From a virus: a stretch of 64,000 bases of DNA. The notes below the pieces were generated by a model. The model was not told the DNA's origin. It did no database searches and saw nothing but the letters and a program-made list of their open reading frames with translations. The translations under genes and the position numbers were made by a program. The stretch's first letter is position 1, and every line of letters starts with the position of its first letter. The stretch covers positions 1 to 64,000 of IMG/VR virus record IMGVR_UViG_3300042503_000110; one strand, given 5' to 3'. Below are positions 13,912 through 25,715 of the stretch, piece after piece.

Positions 13912-14610
13912 ATGGCTTATGTCTACAGACATATCAGGTTAGATAAGAATGTACCTTTCTATATTGGATTAGGTACAGATTCTAATTATTCTAGAGCACA
14001 TCAAACTAAAAGTAGAAATCAACACTGGCATAATGTTGTAAAACACTCTGAGTATAGGGTAGAGATTATGTTAGACGATTTATCCTTTGAGGAGGCTTGT
14101 GCAAAAGAAATAGAACTGATAAGTGTGTATGGCAGAGTAGATACTTGTGGAGGTACTCTAGTTAATTGGACTGATGGAGGACAAGGTACTTTAGGTTGGA
14201 GACATGAGATAGGTTACTGGACAGGTAGGACTTTACCAGAATCTATGCGTAAGAATCTATCTGAAGTTGCTAAGTTAAGAGTAGGAGAGAAGAATCATTT
14301 TTATGGGAAATCTCACTCCGAAGAAACAAAAGAAAAACTTAGACAGTCTAGACTAGGTAGTGCTCTTCCAGAAGAAACTAAACTTAAAATAAAAGAGTCT
14401 TTAAAGAACTCTGAAGCTTTTAAGAATAGAGTTCAGGCTGTTAGGCTAGGGGCAGACAATCCTAAATCTAAACAAGTAATCAATACCGAAACAGGAGAGA
14501 CTTATGAGAACCTTAGAATAGCTTCAGAAATTACTGGAATAAACTACGATAAACTAAGATCTTACTGCCAAGGAAAAGTAAAAAGTAAAACAAATTGGAG
14601 ATATAATTAA
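13912..14610 (+). CDS. GIY-YIG homing endonuclease
   Basis: A 232-residue protein. Residues about 3-95 form a GIY-YIG nuclease domain (VYRHIRLDKNVPFYIGLG, later ELISVYGRVDTCGG and LVNWTDGGQG). The next part has NUMOD3-type DNA-binding repeats (GEKNHFYGKSHSEETKEKL and a second related copy). The C-terminus is a NUMOD1-like helix-turn-helix (TGETYENLRIASEITGI). Such enzymes cut an unoccupied allele and spread by repair. It is a free-standing gene fitted with two-base spacers between the holin-like gene and the endolysin candidate, without disturbing either frame. It is probably a selfish insertion. Confidence 0.85.
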   Translation: MAYVYRHIRLDKNVPFYIGLGTDSNYSRAHQTKSRNQHWHNVVKHSEYRVEIMLDDLSFEEACAKEIELISVYGRVDTCGGTLVNWTDGGQGTLGWRHEIGYWTGRTLPESMRKNLSEVAKLRVGEKNHFYGKSHSEETKEKLRQSRLGSALPEETKLKIKESLKNSEAFKNRVQAVRLGADNPKSKQVINTETGETYENLRIASEITGINYDKLRSYCQGKVKSKTNWRYN

Positions 14611-15263: not shown

Positions 15264-15722
15264 ATGAAAAATTGGAAGGCCCTTTGTAGTCTTCTTTTCT
15301 TAGTCAACTCCTGCTTTTGTCAAACATTGTCAAAGGCAGGGGATGGCTGGGACTTAAAAATTGATTCGGCAATCAACCTAATTAAAAACTATGACATTGA
15401 TAAGTACATAGTTTTTACTGAAGTCTGTGAGCGGATTGATTTTTGGAACAGTTCTTTTTCTTCCACAGGTATAGTTGAAGGTCGCTATACCATACTTGTA
15501 GCAGATGCAGACATTAAGTTAAATTCAATTAACAACTTAGCCTGCGTCTTAGTTCACGAAAGCCAGCATCTTTTCTACGCAAAAGAAGGCATTGTTTTAA
15601 GTGAAGCGGAAGAAGAATATAAATGCTACATGTACGAGTTGTCCTTCATCAAAAACATTCCAACCCCTGAGCCATGGTTACTGGCAAATCTTTATGAAAA
15701 ACTGCAAAAATATAGACAATGA
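15264..15722 (+). CDS. Exported small HExxH metallopeptidase-like protein
   Basis: A 152-residue protein with an N-terminal export signal (KNWKALCSLLFLVNSCFCQ). Cysteine at 17 after LVNS could be a weak lipobox, so it may be a lipoprotein or be cut by signal peptidase I. The motif LVHESQHLFYAKEG at about residues 94-107 is a zinc-peptidase HExxH, and the acidic helix SEAEEEYKCYMYE 15-20 residues later could give the third ligand, as in small gluzincins. It is therefore a candidate secreted protease working in the host periplasm or envelope. Its start directly abuts the previous stop, and its TGA overlaps the next ATG (ATGA). Activity is not proven. Confidence 0.55.
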   Translation: MKNWKALCSLLFLVNSCFCQTLSKAGDGWDLKIDSAINLIKNYDIDKYIVFTEVCERIDFWNSSFSSTGIVEGRYTILVADADIKLNSINNLACVLVHESQHLFYAKEGIVLSEAEEEYKCYMYELSFIKNIPTPEPWLLANLYEKLQKYRQ

Positions 15723-17608
15723 AAAAACTAATTCTATTTGTAGTCGGGGTAATAACCTTGGCTACTAACCTATTTGCACAAAGTGCAAACACTTCTCCAG
15801 GTACGGGCCATTGGGTTGTTATTGACTCAGGCTATCAAGTAGCTACAACTACTGTAGGACAAACAGTAGCTCCACTTCATTTTTACAACACTTCTACTTC
15901 TGAAAAGATCACAGGTATGCAGTTTCGTGTATTCTACGACAACACTGCATTTACTGCTGTAGTGCCTTCCTTAAAGATCTCTACTTCAGACCAATACCTT
16001 CAGTATGTAGATAGTAACGCACAGGGATTCTTAACTGTAACTTTAGCGTACACAGGTTCTAGTGCTAGTTTTAACTATTCTAACGGAGCAACTTTTGACC
16101 TGACTTTCACTCATGCTAGTAGTGCTATTTGGAACAACTTAGATTCTATTAAGACTATGAAAGTTGCAGGTGTTAAATCATTTGCAAACAAAGCTGCTAC
16201 TAACTGGGGTAACGACACTACTTTGGTAGTTTACTCTTACGGAGGTCGTTTCAATCAGAAAGTTTTAAGATTCGCTGCTAAGTTCAAAAACGTTACAGGC
16301 TCTGATGCTAAGAGTTTGTGGGTGTCTTTAGAAAAGAAAGCACCAACTGGGTCTTGGACTCAAGTAGATGCTAAGGCAACTAACTCTGTAGGACATGTTG
16401 TGTTTAGAGAATTTTTAGATACTACATATTGGGATGTCCGCATGGTTGTTAAAGGAGACACAATGACTCCAGGTAACGTATTCTCTACTGCGGATGCACA
16501 GAAGATTAACCAATCTATACTAGGTCAATACACTCCCTCAGGCTTTGATTACTACACAATGGATGTAAATGGAACTACTGGAGACATTAATATTGCTGAC
16601 GTATACTCTGTGTATGGAAGATTAGCTGGTAGATTTACTTCTTGGCCTAACTCTAAGAAAGACGTAATGTTCTTTACTGTCGCTGAGTACAACGCAATCA
16701 ACGGGGCTACATCTAACTTAACTTCAACTTATGCTACTGTAAATAACTTTAATTACACTATTGACGGTAGAGACTCCATTACCTATTACGTAGCAGTAAA
16801 AGGAGACGCAAACTCTACAGGATTTAAGATGGCTCGTTTGACTCCTATTAAAATTGTCAACCAAGCAAATGCTAAGAAATACATTATTGACCAAACAGTA
16901 TCTTATGACAATCCTACTTTAGATAAAGTAGAAATCAACATGCCGAAAATTACCGTGGAGAGTGGAAACTTAGTAAACGTACCAGTTAAAGTTCTTACAA
17001 ACGGAAAATCTTTGGGCGCTCTTCAGTTAGATCTTAAATACGACACATCTTACTTAGAGTTTAAGAACATTGAAATGACTGAAAAATTAATGAAGTGGAC
17101 TGCATACACTAATCCTTCAGGAGGAATTGTTTCCTGGGGAGGAGCAGACTTAACTAACACTAATCTATTGGTTGATGGAGAACAAGCATTTACCTTACAG
17201 TTTATTGCTAAAAAACCACAAGACTCTTGGGCAACCGCAGCTATCTGGACATCTGAAAAATACGTAGGTGATGACAAAGCAAAAGACATGGTAATCACTC
17301 CTACTATGGGTATCGTAGAGGTGCGTAGAAAAGGCACAGTAGCAATGAAAGATATTTCATCTATGCTGGCGTTTCCTAATCCTACAGTAGATTACGTAGA
17401 GATTCATTTTAAAGTAGAAGAAGAAAGCCAAGTTGATTTATCTCTGTACAACGAAGTAGGTCAATTAATTGAAACTATCTTACATACAAAAATGCCTAAA
17501 GGGTCATACCAATACACTACAAATCTAGAAAGATTATCTAATGGAACTTACATTTTGGTACTAAGAACAAACAAACAGTTACTAAATTCTAAACTATTAA
17601 TTATATAA
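15719..17608 (+). CDS. Secreted cohesin/dockerin-like protein with T9SS sorting domain
   Basis: A 629-residue protein. Signal peptide at residues 1-20 (KKLILFVVGVITLATNLFAQ). Residues about 37-150 and 410-500 look like cohesin-type beta sandwiches (the second has NVPVKV, then SLGALQLDLKYDTSYLEF). Residues about 254-308 are dockerin-like with two calcium-loop halves (FSTADAQKINQSILG and DVNGTTGDINIADVY, then GRLAGRF). The last 80 residues (551-629) form a type A T9SS C-terminal domain: FPNPTVDYVEI, VDLSLYNEVGQLI, LSNGTYILVL, ending in KLLII. Known T9SS cargo is moved across the outer membrane and anchored or released. A T9SS signal in a phage protein is unusual. The same dockerin-like module recurs in the gene at 20300. 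Confidence 0.75.
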   Translation: MKKLILFVVGVITLATNLFAQSANTSPGTGHWVVIDSGYQVATTTVGQTVAPLHFYNTSTSEKITGMQFRVFYDNTAFTAVVPSLKISTSDQYLQYVDSNAQGFLTVTLAYTGSSASFNYSNGATFDLTFTHASSAIWNNLDSIKTMKVAGVKSFANKAATNWGNDTTLVVYSYGGRFNQKVLRFAAKFKNVTGSDAKSLWVSLEKKAPTGSWTQVDAKATNSVGHVVFREFLDTTYWDVRMVVKGDTMTPGNVFSTADAQKINQSILGQYTPSGFDYYTMDVNGTTGDINIADVYSVYGRLAGRFTSWPNSKKDVMFFTVAEYNAINGATSNLTSTYATVNNFNYTIDGRDSITYYVAVKGDANSTGFKMARLTPIKIVNQANAKKYIIDQTVSYDNPTLDKVEINMPKITVESGNLVNVPVKVLTNGKSLGALQLDLKYDTSYLEFKNIEMTEKLMKWTAYTNPSGGIVSWGGADLTNTNLLVDGEQAFTLQFIAKKPQDSWATAAIWTSEKYVGDDKAKDMVITPTMGIVEVRRKGTVAMKDISSMLAFPNPTVDYVEIHFKVEEESQVDLSLYNEVGQLIETILHTKMPKGSYQYTTNLERLSNGTYILVLRTNKQLLNSKLLII

Positions 17609-17612
17609 AACT

Positions 17613-17963
17613 ATGAGTTTAAAGAACAAACTTGGCTTCGGCCAAGCAGAACCCGTAGCAGTCGAGCCTAACAATAGGTTTTATTACATGCTACAACAGA
17701 TGCAAGCTAATCGTTGGAGAATTACTGCCATCGTATTAGGTTTATTTTTCTTCATTATTGTTGGGATTAACTCAGCAGTATTCTTTGGAGTCGAGATTCA
17801 AGAATCTTGGAAAGAAATGTTACTTATCCTTTTTGGAGCCTTTGTAGGTAATTTGAACAAAGTAGTAGACTACTGGTTTAATTCAGAAGACCGCGACAAA
17901 ATGCTTATTCAAAAAGTAGATGAGGAGGATGGAGTATCTTTGTCTAACACAACTAACTCTTAA
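17613..17963 (+). CDS. Small two-helix membrane protein
   Basis: A 116-residue protein: soluble N-terminus of about 35 residues, two membrane helices (ITAIVLGLFFFIIVGINSAVF and EMLLILFGAFVGNLNKVV), then a charged tail (SEDRDKMLIQKVDEEDG). It resembles phage membrane proteins of the holin/antiholin class and could be a second holin or an accessory to the exported proteins around it. It lies within the tightly packed operon, with four-base gaps on both sides. No family is firmly recognised. Confidence 0.5.
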   Translation: MSLKNKLGFGQAEPVAVEPNNRFYYMLQQMQANRWRITAIVLGLFFFIIVGINSAVFFGVEIQESWKEMLLILFGAFVGNLNKVVDYWFNSEDRDKMLIQKVDEEDGVSLSNTTNS

Positions 17964-17967
17964 TATT

Positions 17968-18288
17968 ATGTCAGAAGAACAAGAAGGCGGAATGTCTGGA
18001 GTAAAGAAAGCTATTATCGGAGCCATCACCACCGCAGTTACTGCAGGTGGTGCTTGGTTCGCTACTACTTTAGGTGGTGGAGAAGAGAAAGATAATACTC
18101 CAACAGCTGTAACAGCGCCCGCACCCGTAATCAACATTACTAACAGTAATGAGAATCAACAGAAGCAACAAAATAATGGCGGTGGCAACACTGTAATTAT
18201 TAAGGAAAAAACAGTTCCTGCTCCTGCTCCTACCCCTGCGACTGCACCAGCTTCTAAACCTCCAGCAGATGAAGAAGATCCTTGGTAG
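17968..18288 (+). CDS. Single-span protein with proline-rich tail
   Basis: A 106-residue protein (MSEEQEGGMSGVKKAIIGA). An in-frame ATG at 17920 would overlap the previous gene; the start at 17968 gives a tidy four-base spacer. One membrane helix (AIIGAITTAVTAGGAWFATTL), an Asn/Gln-rich stretch (NSNENQQKQQNNGGGN), then a Pro/Ala linker (VPAPAPTPATAPASKPP) and acidic end DEEDPW. A membrane anchor plus extended Pro-rich segment is the layout of TonB-like or inner-membrane spanin proteins that span the periplasm. The gene overlaps the start of an outer-membrane lipoprotein gene by 20 bases, as spanin pairs often do. The function is inferred from layout only. Confidence 0.5.
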   Translation: MSEEQEGGMSGVKKAIIGAITTAVTAGGAWFATTLGGGEEKDNTPTAVTAPAPVINITNSNENQQKQQNNGGGNTVIIKEKTVPAPAPTPATAPASKPPADEEDPW

Positions 18289-18958
18289 CCTATTGATTGT
18301 AATCCTTGTCTATGGTTGTGGTTCTATGAAGACCACAACCGAGGATGAGGTTATTGAGAAAGCAGACATCTCTACTGTCTCTAACTATACGGACTCTATC
18401 AAGAGAACCGTACAAGTTATTAGTATGGACATGACTAAAGTATTGGCTATGTATCCAGACTTGCAAGAGAAGAACGTAGGGTTAGGTTTTGCGGAATCCG
18501 TATTAGATTATTTAGATGAGACAAATCGTTTTGTATTTACTGAGGAAAAGGGTGAAATCAAGGAAAGGATGGTAACTCAGTTCAAAGCCTCTAAAAAAGG
18601 AGTCTTTGAAGAACCCATTGATGGCAAAGGAAAGATCAAAGCAGCACAATACTTTGTGTATGTGACTGTGGCAGATTTTGCCGTAGATGAAGACGAAACT
18701 GTAGAAGGAGCTAAAGCTAAAGTAGTTGTTACTACTTTTATCCGTTTACAAGTTCGTTTTGTAGATGCAAAAACAGGACAAATCTTTATTGGCTCAGGAG
18801 AAGGAGAGTCCACTAAAACTGGAGAATCTTTTCTTAAGTCGCTAGACGGAATGAAATTTTCTCAAAGCACAGTAGGTAAGGCTACACGTAAATCACTAGA
18901 AACTGCTACAACTAAAGTGATTGAAAACCTTATCAAGAACGGTGTCTTTAAGAGTTAA
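18269..18958 (+). CDS. CsgG-like outer-membrane lipoprotein
   Basis: A 229-residue protein with a lipoprotein signal (MKKILGSLLIVILVYGC; lipidated Cys17). The body resembles the CsgG family that forms the curli secretion pore: NVGLGFAESVLDYLDETNRFVFTE matches the 'G.g....e.l...L..t.rF.v.er' pattern, followed by AAQYFVYVTVADFAVDED, then IRLQVRFVDAKTGQIF and a C-terminal helix VGKATRKSLETATTKVIENL. CsgG monomers assemble into an outer-membrane ring. Other members of this broad family are plain periplasmic lipoproteins, so pore formation is not assured. It overlaps both neighbours. A phage-encoded CsgG-like protein next to a putative barrel protein is notable. Confidence 0.6.
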   Translation: MKKILGSLLIVILVYGCGSMKTTTEDEVIEKADISTVSNYTDSIKRTVQVISMDMTKVLAMYPDLQEKNVGLGFAESVLDYLDETNRFVFTEEKGEIKERMVTQFKASKKGVFEEPIDGKGKIKAAQYFVYVTVADFAVDEDETVEGAKAKVVVTTFIRLQVRFVDAKTGQIFIGSGEGESTKTGESFLKSLDGMKFSQSTVGKATRKSLETATTKVIENLIKNGVFKS

Positions 18959-20303
18959 CATATTAATCTTGTTTATGTGTATAGGACTGAGTTTAAACGC
19001 TCAGTCCTTTACATATTCGTACACAGACCCGTGTACAAAAGAGCTAAAGTTTATATTCGCAGATATGAACTCTCCTATAGTGATTAGTTACTATGGGCAA
19101 GTCAGAAGTTTTAATTACGCAGAACTTCAGGATGGTACATTTGACAATTGGTTAAATAGTACCTACTTGAATTTTCGAAACGCTAAACCCTGCGAAGGAG
19201 TATTTTCAACAACTACAACCACTACCTCAACTAATACAGTAACATCTTTAGTTAGTAGTGTGATGAATTTAAACTCAATATCTAGTTTAGATTTATCCTC
19301 AACTTCTATGGGATCTAGTACCTCTATAGGAAGTACAACATCTTCAGGAACAACAAGTACAGACAGTAAAAATGAAAGTTCGAACGACAAGCCCAGTAGC
19401 AATGGAGATAATAATTCTACTGGTAATTCTGGGGATAACTCTGGTCAAGGTGGCGAATCATCTGGACAAGGGTCCAATACGTCGCAAGGACAAGTAAGTG
19501 TTGGGAGCAAATCTAAGGGAGGCTCTGGCGGAAGTGGTGGAAGTGGCGGAGAGGGCGAAACTCCAGCCGAAGAAAAAACCCCTGAAAAAATTGAAGAACA
19601 AAAGTCCGAAACCCAACAAGCAGGCGGAAGTGCGTCTGCAAAGTCAGCAGCAAAAGGTAAAGTAGAAACACAGAAACCAGCTATCCTAGTTACAGGAGAC
19701 ATTGTAGGTGTTCAGACAGTTAAAGACCAAGCACAAGACGCGCGTGGTACTATGTCTTTTACTCGTGTTAAAGGAGATGGCACAGCTTCAATTGGATTGT
19801 CTGCTGACTATATGGTTAATGCAAAGATTGGAAACTTTAACGGTATGCGATCTTGGATGGGCGTTAACAAAAAAGGACACAAGCACATTAACGTATTATC
19901 TGCGGGAATTAACTTAATGCCTAGGTCTTACAACGGCTCATTGCTTTTTGTAAGAGTAAACTCGCTTAAAAACTTTACAGCTCTGTACGGAGCAGCCGCT
20001 TCTTACGGAGAGTTATTTAAAGAAGAAGTAATCTCTACTCTTCTTATAGGAGGTTTTATGTACAAAGGACAACTAACTAAACATATTGACGCTACCATTA
20101 TCGCAGCTAGTGTGTACGCACCATACACAAAATACTACACTGAGAGTTTGTTTGAGTCTCAGCCTATTATAGTTCCGTTCCTAAACATTAACTATTCTAT
20201 AACTAAGACTTTTAAATTTGGCTTAACCGCAGGAGGTACGTATATCGCAAACCAGGATATAGTAAACTATCAAGTCTTAATGGGAGGTAAACTAAAGATA
20301 TGA
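18921..20303 (+). CDS. Exported protein with low-complexity linker and putative OM beta barrel
   Basis: A 460-residue protein. Export signal at residues about 1-27 (basic start, then VNILILFMCIGLSLNA). A small N-terminal domain (SYTDPCTKELKFIF, ISYYGQVRSFNY) precedes a Ser/Thr/Gly-rich stretch (residues about 95-245, including GGSGGSGGSGGEGE and a charged EKTPEKIEEQ). Residues about 265-460 alternate polar and hydrophobic amphipathic strands (ASIGLSADYMVNAKIG, INVLSAGINLMP, FKFGLTAGGTYIA) and could form an 8-10-strand outer-membrane barrel. The N-terminal part would then sit on one side of the outer membrane. The start overlaps the lipoprotein gene by 38 bases, which supplies the basic n-region of the signal. 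Confidence 0.55.
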   Translation: MKTLSRTVSLRVNILILFMCIGLSLNAQSFTYSYTDPCTKELKFIFADMNSPIVISYYGQVRSFNYAELQDGTFDNWLNSTYLNFRNAKPCEGVFSTTTTTTSTNTVTSLVSSVMNLNSISSLDLSSTSMGSSTSIGSTTSSGTTSTDSKNESSNDKPSSNGDNNSTGNSGDNSGQGGESSGQGSNTSQGQVSVGSKSKGGSGGSGGSGGEGETPAEEKTPEKIEEQKSETQQAGGSASAKSAAKGKVETQKPAILVTGDIVGVQTVKDQAQDARGTMSFTRVKGDGTASIGLSADYMVNAKIGNFNGMRSWMGVNKKGHKHINVLSAGINLMPRSYNGSLLFVRVNSLKNFTALYGAAASYGELFKEEVISTLLIGGFMYKGQLTKHIDATIIAASVYAPYTKYYTESLFESQPIIVPFLNINYSITKTFKFGLTAGGTYIANQDIVNYQVLMGGKLKI

Positions 20304-21283
20304 GATGGCTGATTGTTCTTTTTTTATTCTCGTCTCCTCTAATAGCACAATTTACCTATTCGGGATATCTCTATAATGCGAATGGTTCTGGCGCAGCTAA
20401 CGTGGCTGTTAAACTGTACAGAAGAACAAACTCAACCATTGCAGGATTTACTAACCAACAAAATTATAATGGACACTCTTACTATCGTTCTACTGGAAGT
20501 GCTACTTGGACTACTGCTAGGTCTAACTGTGTAGCTATGGGTGGACACTTAGTAACCATTACAACTTCAGGTGAACAATCATTTATATTTAATATATGGC
20601 CTTCAGGATGGATAGGACTAACAGATGAAGTCAGTGAAGGTACTTGGAGATGGGTAACAGGAGAAACTTATTCTTATACTAACTGGAACTCTGGAGAACC
20701 AAACAATGCAGGTAATGAAGACTACGTACAGTTTGTATCTAATGGAAGGTGGAATGACTTACCTAACAACTACAATCTTCCTTATGTACTAGAGTTTGAA
20801 TATTTAGTTACAACTTCTTCTTGGACTCTCTATAAAACAATCTATACTAACTCTTCAGGTTATTATTCTATTTCAGAAGCCTACGATCCATCAAAGGAAT
20901 ACTATATTCAGATAGATGCGCCTACCAGAGTTCAAGCCTACACCAATGCAGACATACAAAACATTTCTAATATTATCTTAGGTAAGACTACAATTAACGG
21001 TCTTACCTATCATAGATTTGATCTTAATGACGACGGGCGAATAAACATAGCTGACAAGTATTATCTATCTGGTAGAAAGGCAGGAAGATTTAATCGGTGG
21101 AAAACTGCACCTGATGTAAGAATCTTCACACTTGCTCAGTATAATGCTATAGTCGCATCTAAAGTAAATGTGCGCACAACTTACCCTGGAGTAGCTACAT
21201 TTACAACCTCAACACTTACTACAGGAGGAACACTAAACTTATATCTTATTGCTCCAGGGTACTCAGGACAAGTAACTTATTAA
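20300..21283 (+). CDS. Secreted C-type lectin with dockerin-like module
   Basis: A 327-residue protein. Signal peptide about residues 1-16 (RWLIVLFLFSSPLIAQ). A carboxypeptidase-regulatory-like beta domain (GYLYNANGSGAANVAVKLY) begins and, after the lectin, appears to resume (IYTNSSGYYSISEAYDPS), so the C-type lectin domain (residues about 54-172) is inserted in it. The lectin has GWIGLTDEVSEGTWRWVTGE, the calcium/sugar motif EPN in NSGEPNNAGNEDYV, and WND in GRWNDLP. Residues about 213-267 are a dockerin-like module (TNADIQNISNIILG, then DLNDDGRINIADKYY and GRKAGRF) clearly homologous to that in the gene at 15719. No T9SS tail is present. Predicted to be exported and to bind glycans. Confidence 0.7.
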   Translation: MRWLIVLFLFSSPLIAQFTYSGYLYNANGSGAANVAVKLYRRTNSTIAGFTNQQNYNGHSYYRSTGSATWTTARSNCVAMGGHLVTITTSGEQSFIFNIWPSGWIGLTDEVSEGTWRWVTGETYSYTNWNSGEPNNAGNEDYVQFVSNGRWNDLPNNYNLPYVLEFEYLVTTSSWTLYKTIYTNSSGYYSISEAYDPSKEYYIQIDAPTRVQAYTNADIQNISNIILGKTTINGLTYHRFDLNDDGRINIADKYYLSGRKAGRFNRWKTAPDVRIFTLAQYNAIVASKVNVRTTYPGVATFTTSTLTTGGTLNLYLIAPGYSGQVTY

Positions 21284-21285
21284 CC

Positions 21286-21726
21286 ATGAAAAAACTAATT
21301 ATAATTCTCACAGCTGCTATTACAGCATCGTTAAGCGGTCAATGTTACAAAATTGACACAGTTAGAAATCACACACAGATGAAGGAACTTGCAGGGAGAC
21401 CTGTAGATTTTGGAATTGTAACAACAGCCGAACAATTAATTGCAGATAAGTATAGTATTTGTGACACAGGCATTAAGGTAGACTTAGCACTAAACACTAT
21501 TGGTATTCCAGAAAGAATAATTAACATTGCAGGAATCCAGTTACTAAAAAGAGACTATATAGTAAATATGTCCATTACTGCTAATAACATTACACATTAT
21601 TCTAGGCACATTAAGACAGTTTACGTAAATGCAATGTTCTTAACTGTAGAGCAAATTCCTCACAATAAAAAAGCCTATTCAAAAGCAGTTGAGAAGTGTT
21701 TAATAGATTTAGTTAAGAAGTTATAG
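21286..21726 (+). CDS. Small exported protein, function unknown
   Basis: A 146-residue protein with an N-terminal signal (KKLIIILTAAITASLSGQ) and cysteines at about 20 and 58. The mature part is mixed alpha/beta (GIQLLKRDYIVNMSITANN, HIKTVYVNAMFLTVEQIP) and ends in a basic helix AVEKCLIDLVKKL. The strand-then-helix ending is vaguely like small periplasmic lipoproteins of the LptE/CsgG-accessory sort, but I recognise no family. It is the last gene of the exported cluster, with a two-base gap to the lectin gene. Confidence 0.5.
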   Translation: MKKLIIILTAAITASLSGQCYKIDTVRNHTQMKELAGRPVDFGIVTTAEQLIADKYSICDTGIKVDLALNTIGIPERIINIAGIQLLKRDYIVNMSITANNITHYSRHIKTVYVNAMFLTVEQIPHNKKAYSKAVEKCLIDLVKKL

Positions 21727-23702: not shown

Positions 23703-25715
23703 ATGCATTTAGACAGTCCAGAATTTTTAATTAACGTAAAGTCTTTGCCTGACCCAGAGTCAGCAGAGTATACTGCGTTTTGGCAAAATGAGGACAAAAA
23801 GATAAATGAAGGAGTAACTATAAATGGTTTCTACTTTTCTCCTTTTGTATACTGGCATTTAAATTTTGGGGCCTTATACATTGACGAAAAGGTAGGAAAT
23901 AGAAATATAAGGAAACTAGGTAAGCCCCAGTTATGGGATACATACCTAGAAGTGGATGATGCGATTTACCGCGCAGAGAATCACCCAGATGGAAAGAAAG
24001 GTCTGGTGATAGTAGGTAGTCGACGTATTTCAAAAACCATTCTTACATCTTCATACATTGCCCATAAGGCAATTACACTTCAGGGAGGGGACAATCTAAT
24101 TTCCGCTCTAAACCAACCTGACTTGAATAACACTACTCAAGCCGTGGATCTTATTTTGCGTAACCTCCCTGATTATTTTAGATTCCCCCGTATTGAAGAC
24201 GACTGGAAACGTCAAGTAACTTTAGGTTACAAAGACAAAAAGTCCAACGCAAGACACGAGTGGTCTAAGATACATGTAAGAAACTTTGACGAAGGGAACA
24301 ATACGGAAGCAGCAGCAGGTCTTACTCTATCCTCTTTCATGCTTGAAGAAGCAGGTAAAGGCAGAATCTTGAACTGCTTGGCTGCGACTATCCCATGTTT
24401 TGACTCACCTTATGGATGGCGTTGTTCTCCTATTGTAATTGGAACATCGGGAGACATGACTAAGGCAGGAGACTTAGAAGAACTTTTTAATAACCCTGAC
24501 GCATATAACTTTCTTCCCGTAGCTGTAGAAGAGTCTGGAAAGTCTTACGGACTATTTGTCCCAGGAACAAAGTCTCTTAAAGTACCTAAAGAACCAACTC
24601 CTCTTGGACTTTACCTAGAGAAAGAAGATCCTTCTGAACTAGATAACATTACTATTTGGGTAGCCAACCAAGACAAGGGTAAGGAAATGATTATAAAGAA
24701 CAGGGAGCAAGTTAAAAAAGCCTCTGGTCTTGAAGCTTATCTAAAGGAGGTCATGTACTACCCGCTCACGCACGAGGAGTGTTTTATGGAAATGTCACAG
24801 AACATTTTTCCTGTAGACCTTCTTCAGGAGCAATTACAGAAACTTGTAGCAAATGAAGTACGTGCAGATTTTGTAGAATTGTACGTAAAGCCTGATGGAA
24901 AAGTAGGACACAAGTTCACGGATAAAAAGCCTGTAGAAAACTTTCCAACTAAACCAGCAGATAATCTAGAAGGCGTAACCCAAATATGGGAGTATCCTAT
25001 TCTAGATGCACCTTATGGACTTTATACAGCAGGGACTGACCCATACAAACAATCTCAAGCACAATACTCTACTTCATTAGGATCTACTTACATTTATAAA
25101 AGAGTTCATAATCTTTCAGGTGAAGGTTGGCAGAATATTGTTGTGGCCGCATACACAGGTCGTCCTAAGAAGATTGACATGTGGTACGAGAATACCAAGA
25201 ACCTATTAAAATTCTATAATGCCAAGAGTCTTTGTGAAAACATGGACTATGGTTTTATTCAACACTGCGTAGAGAAAAATGAAGGTGCACGTATTCTAGA
25301 ACGTACTCCATCATTCTTAACGGACATCCACCCCAACTCTATGGTAAACCGTGACTACGGAATACACATGACCAAAGAGATTAAGGCTTATCTACTAGGT
25401 CTTATTATCGAGTATATAACTGAAGTCATTGATGTAGAGCGTGATGCAGCAGGAAATATTACAAAAGAACGCTTAGGTGTAACTAGAATTTTAGATCCCC
25501 TTTTGATAAAAGAATTAATAAAATATACACCAAAACTCAATGTTGACCGTATTATTGCATTTGGTTTGACATTGGCTATGACTCGAAGTCTTTCTAATAA
25601 AATTACCATCCATAGTAATGCAGAGGACGACAGGATTAGAGAATACTTTCAAACCAAAAAAACTTCTAGTCCATTTAGGATTGGAGGATCAACACCATTT
25701 TCAAGATTTAGATAA
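23703..25715 (+). CDS. terL: Terminase large subunit
   Basis: A 670-residue packaging motor with ATPase and nuclease. The Walker A-like loop GSRRISKT lies at residues 105-112, with Ser in place of the usual second Gly. The Walker B stretch SSFMLEEAGK is near residues 208-217. The nuclease (RNase H-like) part includes YTAGTDPYKQ near residue 445 and CENMDYGF near 510. It matches the size and layout of crAss-like TerL. It translocates DNA into the prohead and cuts it at the end of packaging. It is preceded by the small terminase candidate and followed after eight bases by the portal gene, the classical head operon order. Confidence 0.9.
   Translation: MHLDSPEFLINVKSLPDPESAEYTAFWQNEDKKINEGVTINGFYFSPFVYWHLNFGALYIDEKVGNRNIRKLGKPQLWDTYLEVDDAIYRAENHPDGKKGLVIVGSRRISKTILTSSYIAHKAITLQGGDNLISALNQPDLNNTTQAVDLILRNLPDYFRFPRIEDDWKRQVTLGYKDKKSNARHEWSKIHVRNFDEGNNTEAAAGLTLSSFMLEEAGKGRILNCLAATIPCFDSPYGWRCSPIVIGTSGDMTKAGDLEELFNNPDAYNFLPVAVEESGKSYGLFVPGTKSLKVPKEPTPLGLYLEKEDPSELDNITIWVANQDKGKEMIIKNREQVKKASGLEAYLKEVMYYPLTHEECFMEMSQNIFPVDLLQEQLQKLVANEVRADFVELYVKPDGKVGHKFTDKKPVENFPTKPADNLEGVTQIWEYPILDAPYGLYTAGTDPYKQSQAQYSTSLGSTYIYKRVHNLSGEGWQNIVVAAYTGRPKKIDMWYENTKNLLKFYNAKSLCENMDYGFIQHCVEKNEGARILERTPSFLTDIHPNSMVNRDYGIHMTKEIKAYLLGLIIEYITEVIDVERDAAGNITKERLGVTRILDPLLIKELIKYTPKLNVDRIIAFGLTLAMTRSLSNKITIHSNAEDDRIREYFQTKKTSSPFRIGGSTPFSRFR

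Follow-up and report, generated by a model that had tools for sequence, protein, structure and literature searches.

A candidate surface-display cassette with a CsgG-fold protein at its core in phages linked to Bacteroidota

Here, we consider a set of phage genes that could remodel the exterior of an infected bacterium. Specifically, we analyzed 64 kb (positions 1 to 64,000, hereafter the window) of the 78.7-kb IMG/VR virus record IMGVR_UViG_3300042503_000110, in which three overlapping open reading frames (ORFs) encode, in order, a Pro-rich membrane protein, a CsgG-like exported protein, and an outer-membrane barrel candidate. All three, named in an original prediction made from the DNA, are present. 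We lean, if modestly, toward reading this trio as the envelope core of a display cassette, encoded by the phage, that works on the surface of the Bacteroidota cell during infection. Comparable to pelagiphage curli modules, yet assembled from cellulosome-like parts, the cassette is best read as one that would decorate the infected cell with carbohydrate-binding adhesins. The neighbors of the trio matter more here than do its overlaps, and a large part of the cassette falls beyond the three genes that the original prediction considered.

Two neighbors carry the argument. Upstream of the trio is the gene for a 629-residue scaffold that possesses a cohesin domain (PF00963, 4e-11, 43.7 bits versus a cut-off of 24.1), the profile of which retrieves solved cohesins (2vn5, 5.7e-7). 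The scaffold tail is a sorting domain of the type IX secretion system (T9SS; PF18962, 6.6e-11, 42.8 bits versus a cut-off of 27). Downstream of the trio is the gene for a 327-residue display protein in which a C-type lectin domain (3e-17) is accompanied by a weakly matching dockerin-like module; the dockerin-like profile matches the CipA dockerin (E=0.002), and the module contains a conserved DxNxD-like loop. The display proteins are without a T9SS signal. We aligned 51 display proteins: that of the window, plus 50 of the 53 representatives to which 116 unique display ORFs were reduced at 85% identity. Among them, the heads are Lectin_C (32), GEVED (8), Laminin_G_3 (7), SdrD_B (7), PA14 (2), and Ig_7 (1). 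Two scaffold-type ORFs, that of locus L002 and the scaffold half in Flavobacterium phage immuto, were left out of this alignment, as was one further display copy of locus L158. Judged by their domain matches, the heads are sugar-binding and adhesion domains swapped on a constant base. We considered a diversity-generating retroelement behind the variable heads and rejected it: the window's own record, which is possibly incomplete, contains no reverse transcriptase (PF00078).

Conservation of the cassette and the phages that carry it

Relatives were collected by scanning viral contigs with two queries, the CsgG-like protein of the window (120 relatives confirmed, best 80 kept) and the immuto version (113 confirmed, best 80 kept). 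These 160 loci, together with immuto (L082) and a contig from a metagenome-assembled genome (MAG; L150), make up the 162 loci examined, and hidden Markov models (HMMs) made from close relatives were run on their ORFs. Ninety-nine loci are well flanked, their sequence extending 4 kb or more upstream of the CsgG-like gene and 5.5 kb or more downstream. Every locus was recruited through that gene, and the 99 are not 99 independent cases because they contain only 68 distinct CsgG-like proteins, or 37 at 95% identity. In 99 of 99, the family HMMs detect both halves of the scaffold, its T9SS tail, the Pro-rich protein, the CsgG-like protein, both ends of the barrel protein, the display protein, and a small secreted protein called g146. 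Twelve gene arrangements occur; the display gene varies in position, and the order scaffold, Pro-rich, CsgG-like, barrel is constant in all 12. The scaffold is a single ORF in 78 of the 99 loci and is split in the remainder, which provides a gene-fusion link; in immuto, the two halves reside in neighboring genes. The cassette of the window is composed of the following features.

15264–15722, + strand: g152, secreted HExxH-motif protein, putative zinc peptidase, optional member (71/99 loci)
15719–17608, + strand: scaffold; internal dockerin-like motif in the N-terminal part (~16493–16648), cohesin (~16904–17341), T9SS C-terminal sorting domain (~17372–17602)
17613–17963, + strand: g116, predicted two-span membrane protein, optional member (65/99 loci)
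17968–18288, + strand: Pro-rich single-span protein, 106 residues; hydrophobic segment ~18010–18066, extreme C-terminus EEDPW
18269–18958, + strand: CsgG-fold exported (lipo)protein, 229 residues; based on sub-cut-off Pfam match, structure model, CsgG as best fold match, strong purifying selection
18942–20303, + strand: predicted outer-membrane barrel protein, 453 residues, conserved GTG start; based on relatives' starts, structure model, fold matches
Parts of the barrel protein: signal peptide; DPCT N-domain (~19005–19196); disordered Ser/Thr/Gly/Asn-rich linker (~19278–19670); 12-strand barrel (~19680–20297)
20300–21283, + strand: display protein; signal peptide, C-type lectin domain (~20501–20788), dockerin-like module (~20948–21055)
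21286–21726, + strand: g146, small secreted protein (99/99 loci)

The members evolve at different rates. The CsgG-like protein is more conserved than the terminase (median identity 88% versus 75%, 24 loci), and its changes are mostly silent: amino acid identity is 98% when identity at 4-fold sites is approximately 0.7. By these sequence comparisons, the CsgG-like protein is under strong purifying selection. g146 is fast evolving (median identity 51% versus 88% for the CsgG-like protein) even though it is present in every well-flanked cassette. Weak C-terminal similarity exists between g146 and the CsgG-like protein. g146 is a tentative candidate for a second CsgG-fold protein, with an hhalign probability of 54% with signal peptides, 17.5% when signal peptides are removed, and 0.4% against true CsgG; the g146 profile yielded no useful match to PDB sequences. 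Regarding the optional members, g152 matched no Pfam family and is sometimes located on the opposite strand. We also note that positions 13912–14610 encode a NUMOD3-containing, homing-endonuclease-like protein, and similar genes lie inside the cassette of some relatives, for example between g116 and the Pro-rich gene in locus L001.

The phages that carry the cassette are of more than one kind. The window terminase is crAss-like (PHROG 6681, 8e-91), with relatives among crAss-like and Cellulophaga phages. The closest named relative of this terminase (23703–25715) is, unexpectedly for an otherwise Bacteroidota-linked crAss-like protein, Leptolyngbya phage Lbo-JY46 (40% identity). In 22 sampled records, four terminases are crAss-type (PHROG 6681, E < 1e-90), 12 are phrog_2-type (E < 1e-40), and six are neither at that level. 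Phage immuto, annotated with T4-like gp20 and gp23, has a phrog_2-type terminase match, and its cassette sits among replication and nucleotide-metabolism genes. In a midpoint-rooted tree of 56 CsgG-like proteins, 39 of which have no terminase label, the five crAss-type rows, including the window, form one subclade (support 95/91), and the surrounding clade also contains three phrog_2-type rows. Such a topology is what one would expect if the cassette had passed between phages that differ in their virion genes. Because crAss-type and phrog_2-type phages share a CsgG-like clade, the cassette appears to be independent of virion type.

A bacterial origin of the cassette was likewise considered and rejected. 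A scan of genome_contigs with the CsgG-like alignment produced 158 pattern matches and one confirmed match, the 16.5-kb contig RFPL01000028.1 (L150), with the limit that the scan relies on two short peptide patterns that distant bacterial relatives could escape. The contig belongs to a MAG labeled Sphingomonadaceae and carries the same cassette; it is probably a misbinned phage contig.

Predicted structures of the three envelope proteins

A CsgG fold is the primary structural clue regarding the central protein of the trio. Its AlphaFold2 (AF2) model (46 sequences, predicted local distance difference test [pLDDT] 66.8, predicted template modeling score 0.64) contains a folded domain of approximately 180 residues. 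CsgG (4uv2) is the best match of this model in Foldseek (2.3e-7) and in VIA (Z 12.0, root mean square deviation [rmsd] 4.2, 163 residues aligned), ahead of CT253, Cj1090c, PelC (Z 9.5), FlgT, and LptE. Thus, on a model of pLDDT 66.8, the periplasmic domain has a CsgG fold. At the sequence level, the relation is weak. The Pfam CsgG family PF03783 matches below its cut-off (E=0.018, 14.8 bits versus 20.8), and a match at E<=1 is obtained for 7 of 46 relatives, the strongest with E 0.01. Comparison by hhalign with nine CsgG/HfaB proteins gives a probability of 2%, or 0.8% for mature parts only, and the CsgG-like profile yielded no useful match to PDB sequences. The original description of the protein as CsgG-like is therefore right at the level of the top structural match, but the Pfam match is below cut-off and falls at residues 115–223 rather than in the segment that had been singled out. 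hhalign does align that segment to a helix-strand of CsgG, yet at the same 2% probability. We conclude that the kinship is at the fold level only: the protein is CsgG-fold, not CsgG.

The pore-forming parts of CsgG may further distinguish the two. Where CsgG has its first pore hairpin, the segment in this family is shorter and tipped by an invariant Glu-Asp, and the model lacks the second hairpin; an alternation score for the hairpin separates the family poorly from CsgG. A CsgG-type nonameric pore, which the original prediction cited as the assembly that CsgG makes, finds no support, with sub-threshold sequence scores, a short acidic first hairpin, and a second hairpin that is not modeled. 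For the same reasons, we prefer the name CsgG-fold and consider a ring or adaptor more likely than a pore that suffices by itself. Lipidation may differ across the family. The Cys of a GCGS motif is kept in all 20 clade-1 representatives (by eye), in line with the lipoprotein originally proposed. However, the residue at −2 in the window protein is Tyr (VYGC), and the lipobox pattern misses it; the pattern matches 27 of 46 representatives and fails in 19, and the signal of the immuto version ends in SAQ with no Cys.

The third protein of the trio is predicted to end in a barrel, as the original prediction anticipated, and the barrel has 12 strands in the model (residues 247–452). Its AF2 model (40 sequences, pLDDT 61.1) consists of an N-domain, an unstructured Ser/Thr/Gly/Asn-rich linker, and the 12 strands. 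VIA matches are NalP (Z 24.2, 226 aligned, rmsd 2.6), EspP (22.3), KdgM (19.6), FapF (19.1), and a designed 12-strander (15.2). Judged by the model, the number of strands is fairly secure, and kinship to translocators is not. The protein has no Pfam autotransporter match, and the barrel profile found no relevant PDB match at E<=10. Conserved in the N-domain are a DPCT motif and one further Cys. We rejected homology of this domain to CsgF: the hhalign probability is 88% with signal peptides and 0.2% once they are removed. Ten products of this region were scanned with Pfam, and none of the matches is a curlin repeat.

The Pro-rich protein is single-span, again as anticipated, with one hydropathy segment (residues 15–33, Kyte–Doolittle 1.39) and a variable Pro/Ala/Asn/Gln-rich stretch. 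Its last residue is Trp in 81 of 81 clade-1 and 78 of 78 clade-2 copies, mostly in the form E-(D/E/S)-(P/S)-W. An end so invariable may well serve as a docking peptide. With respect to the overlaps, the 20 nucleotides (nt) shared by the Pro-rich and CsgG-like genes (18269–18288) hold up, and the overlap recurs as −20 or −7 in most readable loci, with a gap instead in a few. The CsgG-like and barrel genes do overlap, but the 38 nt first assigned to them need a TTG start at 18921. An overlap of 17 nt is most likely because most relatives start the barrel either at the counterpart of GTG 18942 (−17) or at an ATG (−20). From their lengths and positions, these are ordinary short overlaps of the translational-coupling kind, not nested Rz/Rz1-type genes.

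Proposed surface display and its alternatives

How might the cassette operate? Apart from two membrane proteins, the Pro-rich protein and g116, every product bears a Sec signal in its sequence. The scaffold would then reach the surface through the T9SS of the host, presumed to be present, by way of its C-terminal sorting domain. Display proteins could dock onto the scaffold cohesin via their dockerin-like modules, and the internal dockerin-like motif of the scaffold could allow scaffolds to chain. The CsgG-fold protein may form a periplasmic ring or adaptor beneath the 12-strand barrel, roughly like PelC under PelB, with the Pro-rich protein extending its conserved EEDPW tail outward from the inner membrane. 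The three might jointly export or anchor the display proteins, which bear no T9SS signal, or the barrel's own N-domain. The notion is that a cell coated in this manner would bind neighboring cells, glycans, or competing phages, promoting spread or blocking superinfection. The trans-envelope export reading of the original prediction finds partial backing, as an export- or display-related set fits the CsgG top fold match, the barrel's resemblance to polypeptide translocators, and the surface-protein neighbors. That the trio is itself an export or translocation device is a reading that we consider less likely than not.

Several points weigh against surface display. The dockerin-like modules fall below the Pfam cut-off (PF00404, 13.2 bits versus 22.9). 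The AF2 models of the CsgG-like and barrel proteins are of low to moderate confidence, as their pLDDT values indicate. A 12-strand barrel is a common shape, and KdgM and a designed protein match it too. The neighbors of the cassette in the window clade include an endolysin-like gene and a gene for a predicted two-transmembrane protein, both of which could serve a reading based on lysis. Finally, no clumping was seen for the CsgGF-carrying methylophage Melnitz in the published account as excerpted (PMC9004378).

Among the alternatives, we take most seriously, while still judging it unlikely, an arrangement in which the barrel serves as an anchor of the autotransporter or invasin kind and exposes its own DPCT domain, with the CsgG-like protein and g146 as periplasmic assembly factors. 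The surface would still be decorated, and no new export channel would be involved. The layout of N-domain, long linker, and C-terminal barrel favors this idea, as do type V translocators as the best VIA matches and the short, acidic hairpin tip of the CsgG-like protein; nonetheless, the barrel has no Pfam autotransporter match, and the exit of display proteins without a T9SS tail is left unexplained. Far less probable is that an oligomeric CsgG-type pore in the outer membrane has taken on a new role in uptake or lysis timing, as was proposed for the CsgGF of Melnitz (PMC9004378). The top fold match and the nearby endolysin-like gene fit such a pore. However, the sequence relation is sub-threshold, one polar hairpin stands in place of two amphipathic ones, no CsgF is detected once the signal peptide is discounted, and the immuto cassette lies in a replication and nucleotide-metabolism context.

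That same genomic context also argues against the spanin-like lysis complex raised by the original prediction, in which the Pro-rich inner-membrane protein would pair with an outer-membrane lipoprotein. While a single-span protein, a possible lipoprotein, overlapping genes, and an endolysin-like gene close by would suit a spanin, overlaps of 20 and 17 nt involve no nesting, the 229-residue outer protein contains a folded CsgG-like domain of ~180 residues, the lipobox is missing in part of the family, and the cassette moves between crAss-type and phrog_2-type phages in the company of adhesin genes. We find the spanin proposal unsupported and rate it the least probable of those considered. Nearly as improbable is that the scaffold and lectin proteins coat the virion after passing through the periplasm at lysis. 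Sugar-binding heads of the kinds seen in the display proteins are known on virions, but Sec signals and a T9SS sorting tail are written into these sequences, and the same cassette occurs in phages with unrelated terminases.

Returning to surface display, a broader proposal follows, one we offer as tentative and rather unlikely in its full form: Bacteroidota phage lineages may share a mobile, cellulosome-like adhesion machine, with exchangeable lectin heads held by cohesin–dockerin contacts on a T9SS-displayed, possibly self-chaining scaffold, and a new two-membrane exporter for them composed of a phage-made CsgG-fold ring, a FapF/autotransporter-like barrel, and the Pro-rich protein. If so, virus remodeling of the infected cell's exterior becomes testable in an isolated system, phage immuto on Flavobacterium sp. 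LMO8. The cassette would represent a second, independently built counterpart of pelagiphage curli and a virus-encoded cohesin–dockerin assembly whose carbohydrate specificity can be swapped. The question of why aquatic phages devote several kilobases to surface proteins is also touched, with cell capture, aggregation, and superinfection exclusion as candidate reasons.

Comparison with known systems

We found no description of this cassette, and no paper on the isolation of immuto, in the PubMed Central literature, with most subscription journals and preprints lying outside that coverage. The excerpted text of a study of freshwater Bacteroidetes phages with bS21 (PMC9723584) makes no mention of lectin, curli, a secretion system, or cohesin. 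The excerpted accounts of curli phages, Cryophage, PelBC, and FapF, compared below, do not describe the present combination.

Cryophage T9SS cargo presents a partial likeness: variable secreted proteins encoded by a Bacteroidetes phage, one with PA14, carry T9SS type A sorting domains, and superinfection exclusion was suggested (PMC7468147). In that case, the excerpted account describes single variable cargo genes and no scaffold with docking modules and envelope proteins. The PelBC exopolysaccharide exporter likewise places a lipoprotein ring (PelC, the fold match noted above) beneath a separate outer-membrane barrel (PMC12141448), but PelB, the cargo of which is polysaccharide, has TPR domains and a barrel of 16 strands. 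The functional-amyloid exporter FapF shares a 12-strand barrel with a long N-terminal extension and linker (PMC5557850). Pseudomonas FapF, however, is trimeric with a coiled coil, whereas the window barrel protein carries a DPCT domain, and no relation to FapF can be detected in its sequence. Cellulosome scaffolds, too, combine cohesin and dockerin-like modules in neighboring genes; by contrast, the window cassette is phage encoded and bears adhesion heads instead of enzymes.

A functional analogy is to the curli (type VIII) modules of pelagiphages and methylophages. Phage CsgG/CsgF with curlin repeats has been published for pelagimyophages, Melnitz, and HTVC023P-type phages, along with cross-family transfer; sibling capture, superinfection defense, and lysis timing are the roles proposed (PMC7029224, PMC9004378, PMC9599517). 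In one such phage, HTVC008M, gp018 (L232:10638–11963), annotated as hypothetical, unites a PA14 domain (2.7e-6) and curlin repeats (5.2e-8) in a single protein. Like those modules, the window cassette is a phage operon in which a gene related to the CsgG channel, here by fold, accompanies exported adhesive proteins, and it appears to have moved between phage families. The curli modules possess a true CsgG/CsgF pair and curlin repeats; in their stead, the window cassette, with a CsgG fold only and neither CsgF nor curlin repeats detected, provides a cohesin- and dockerin-like scaffold, a T9SS tail, and a predicted 12-strand barrel.

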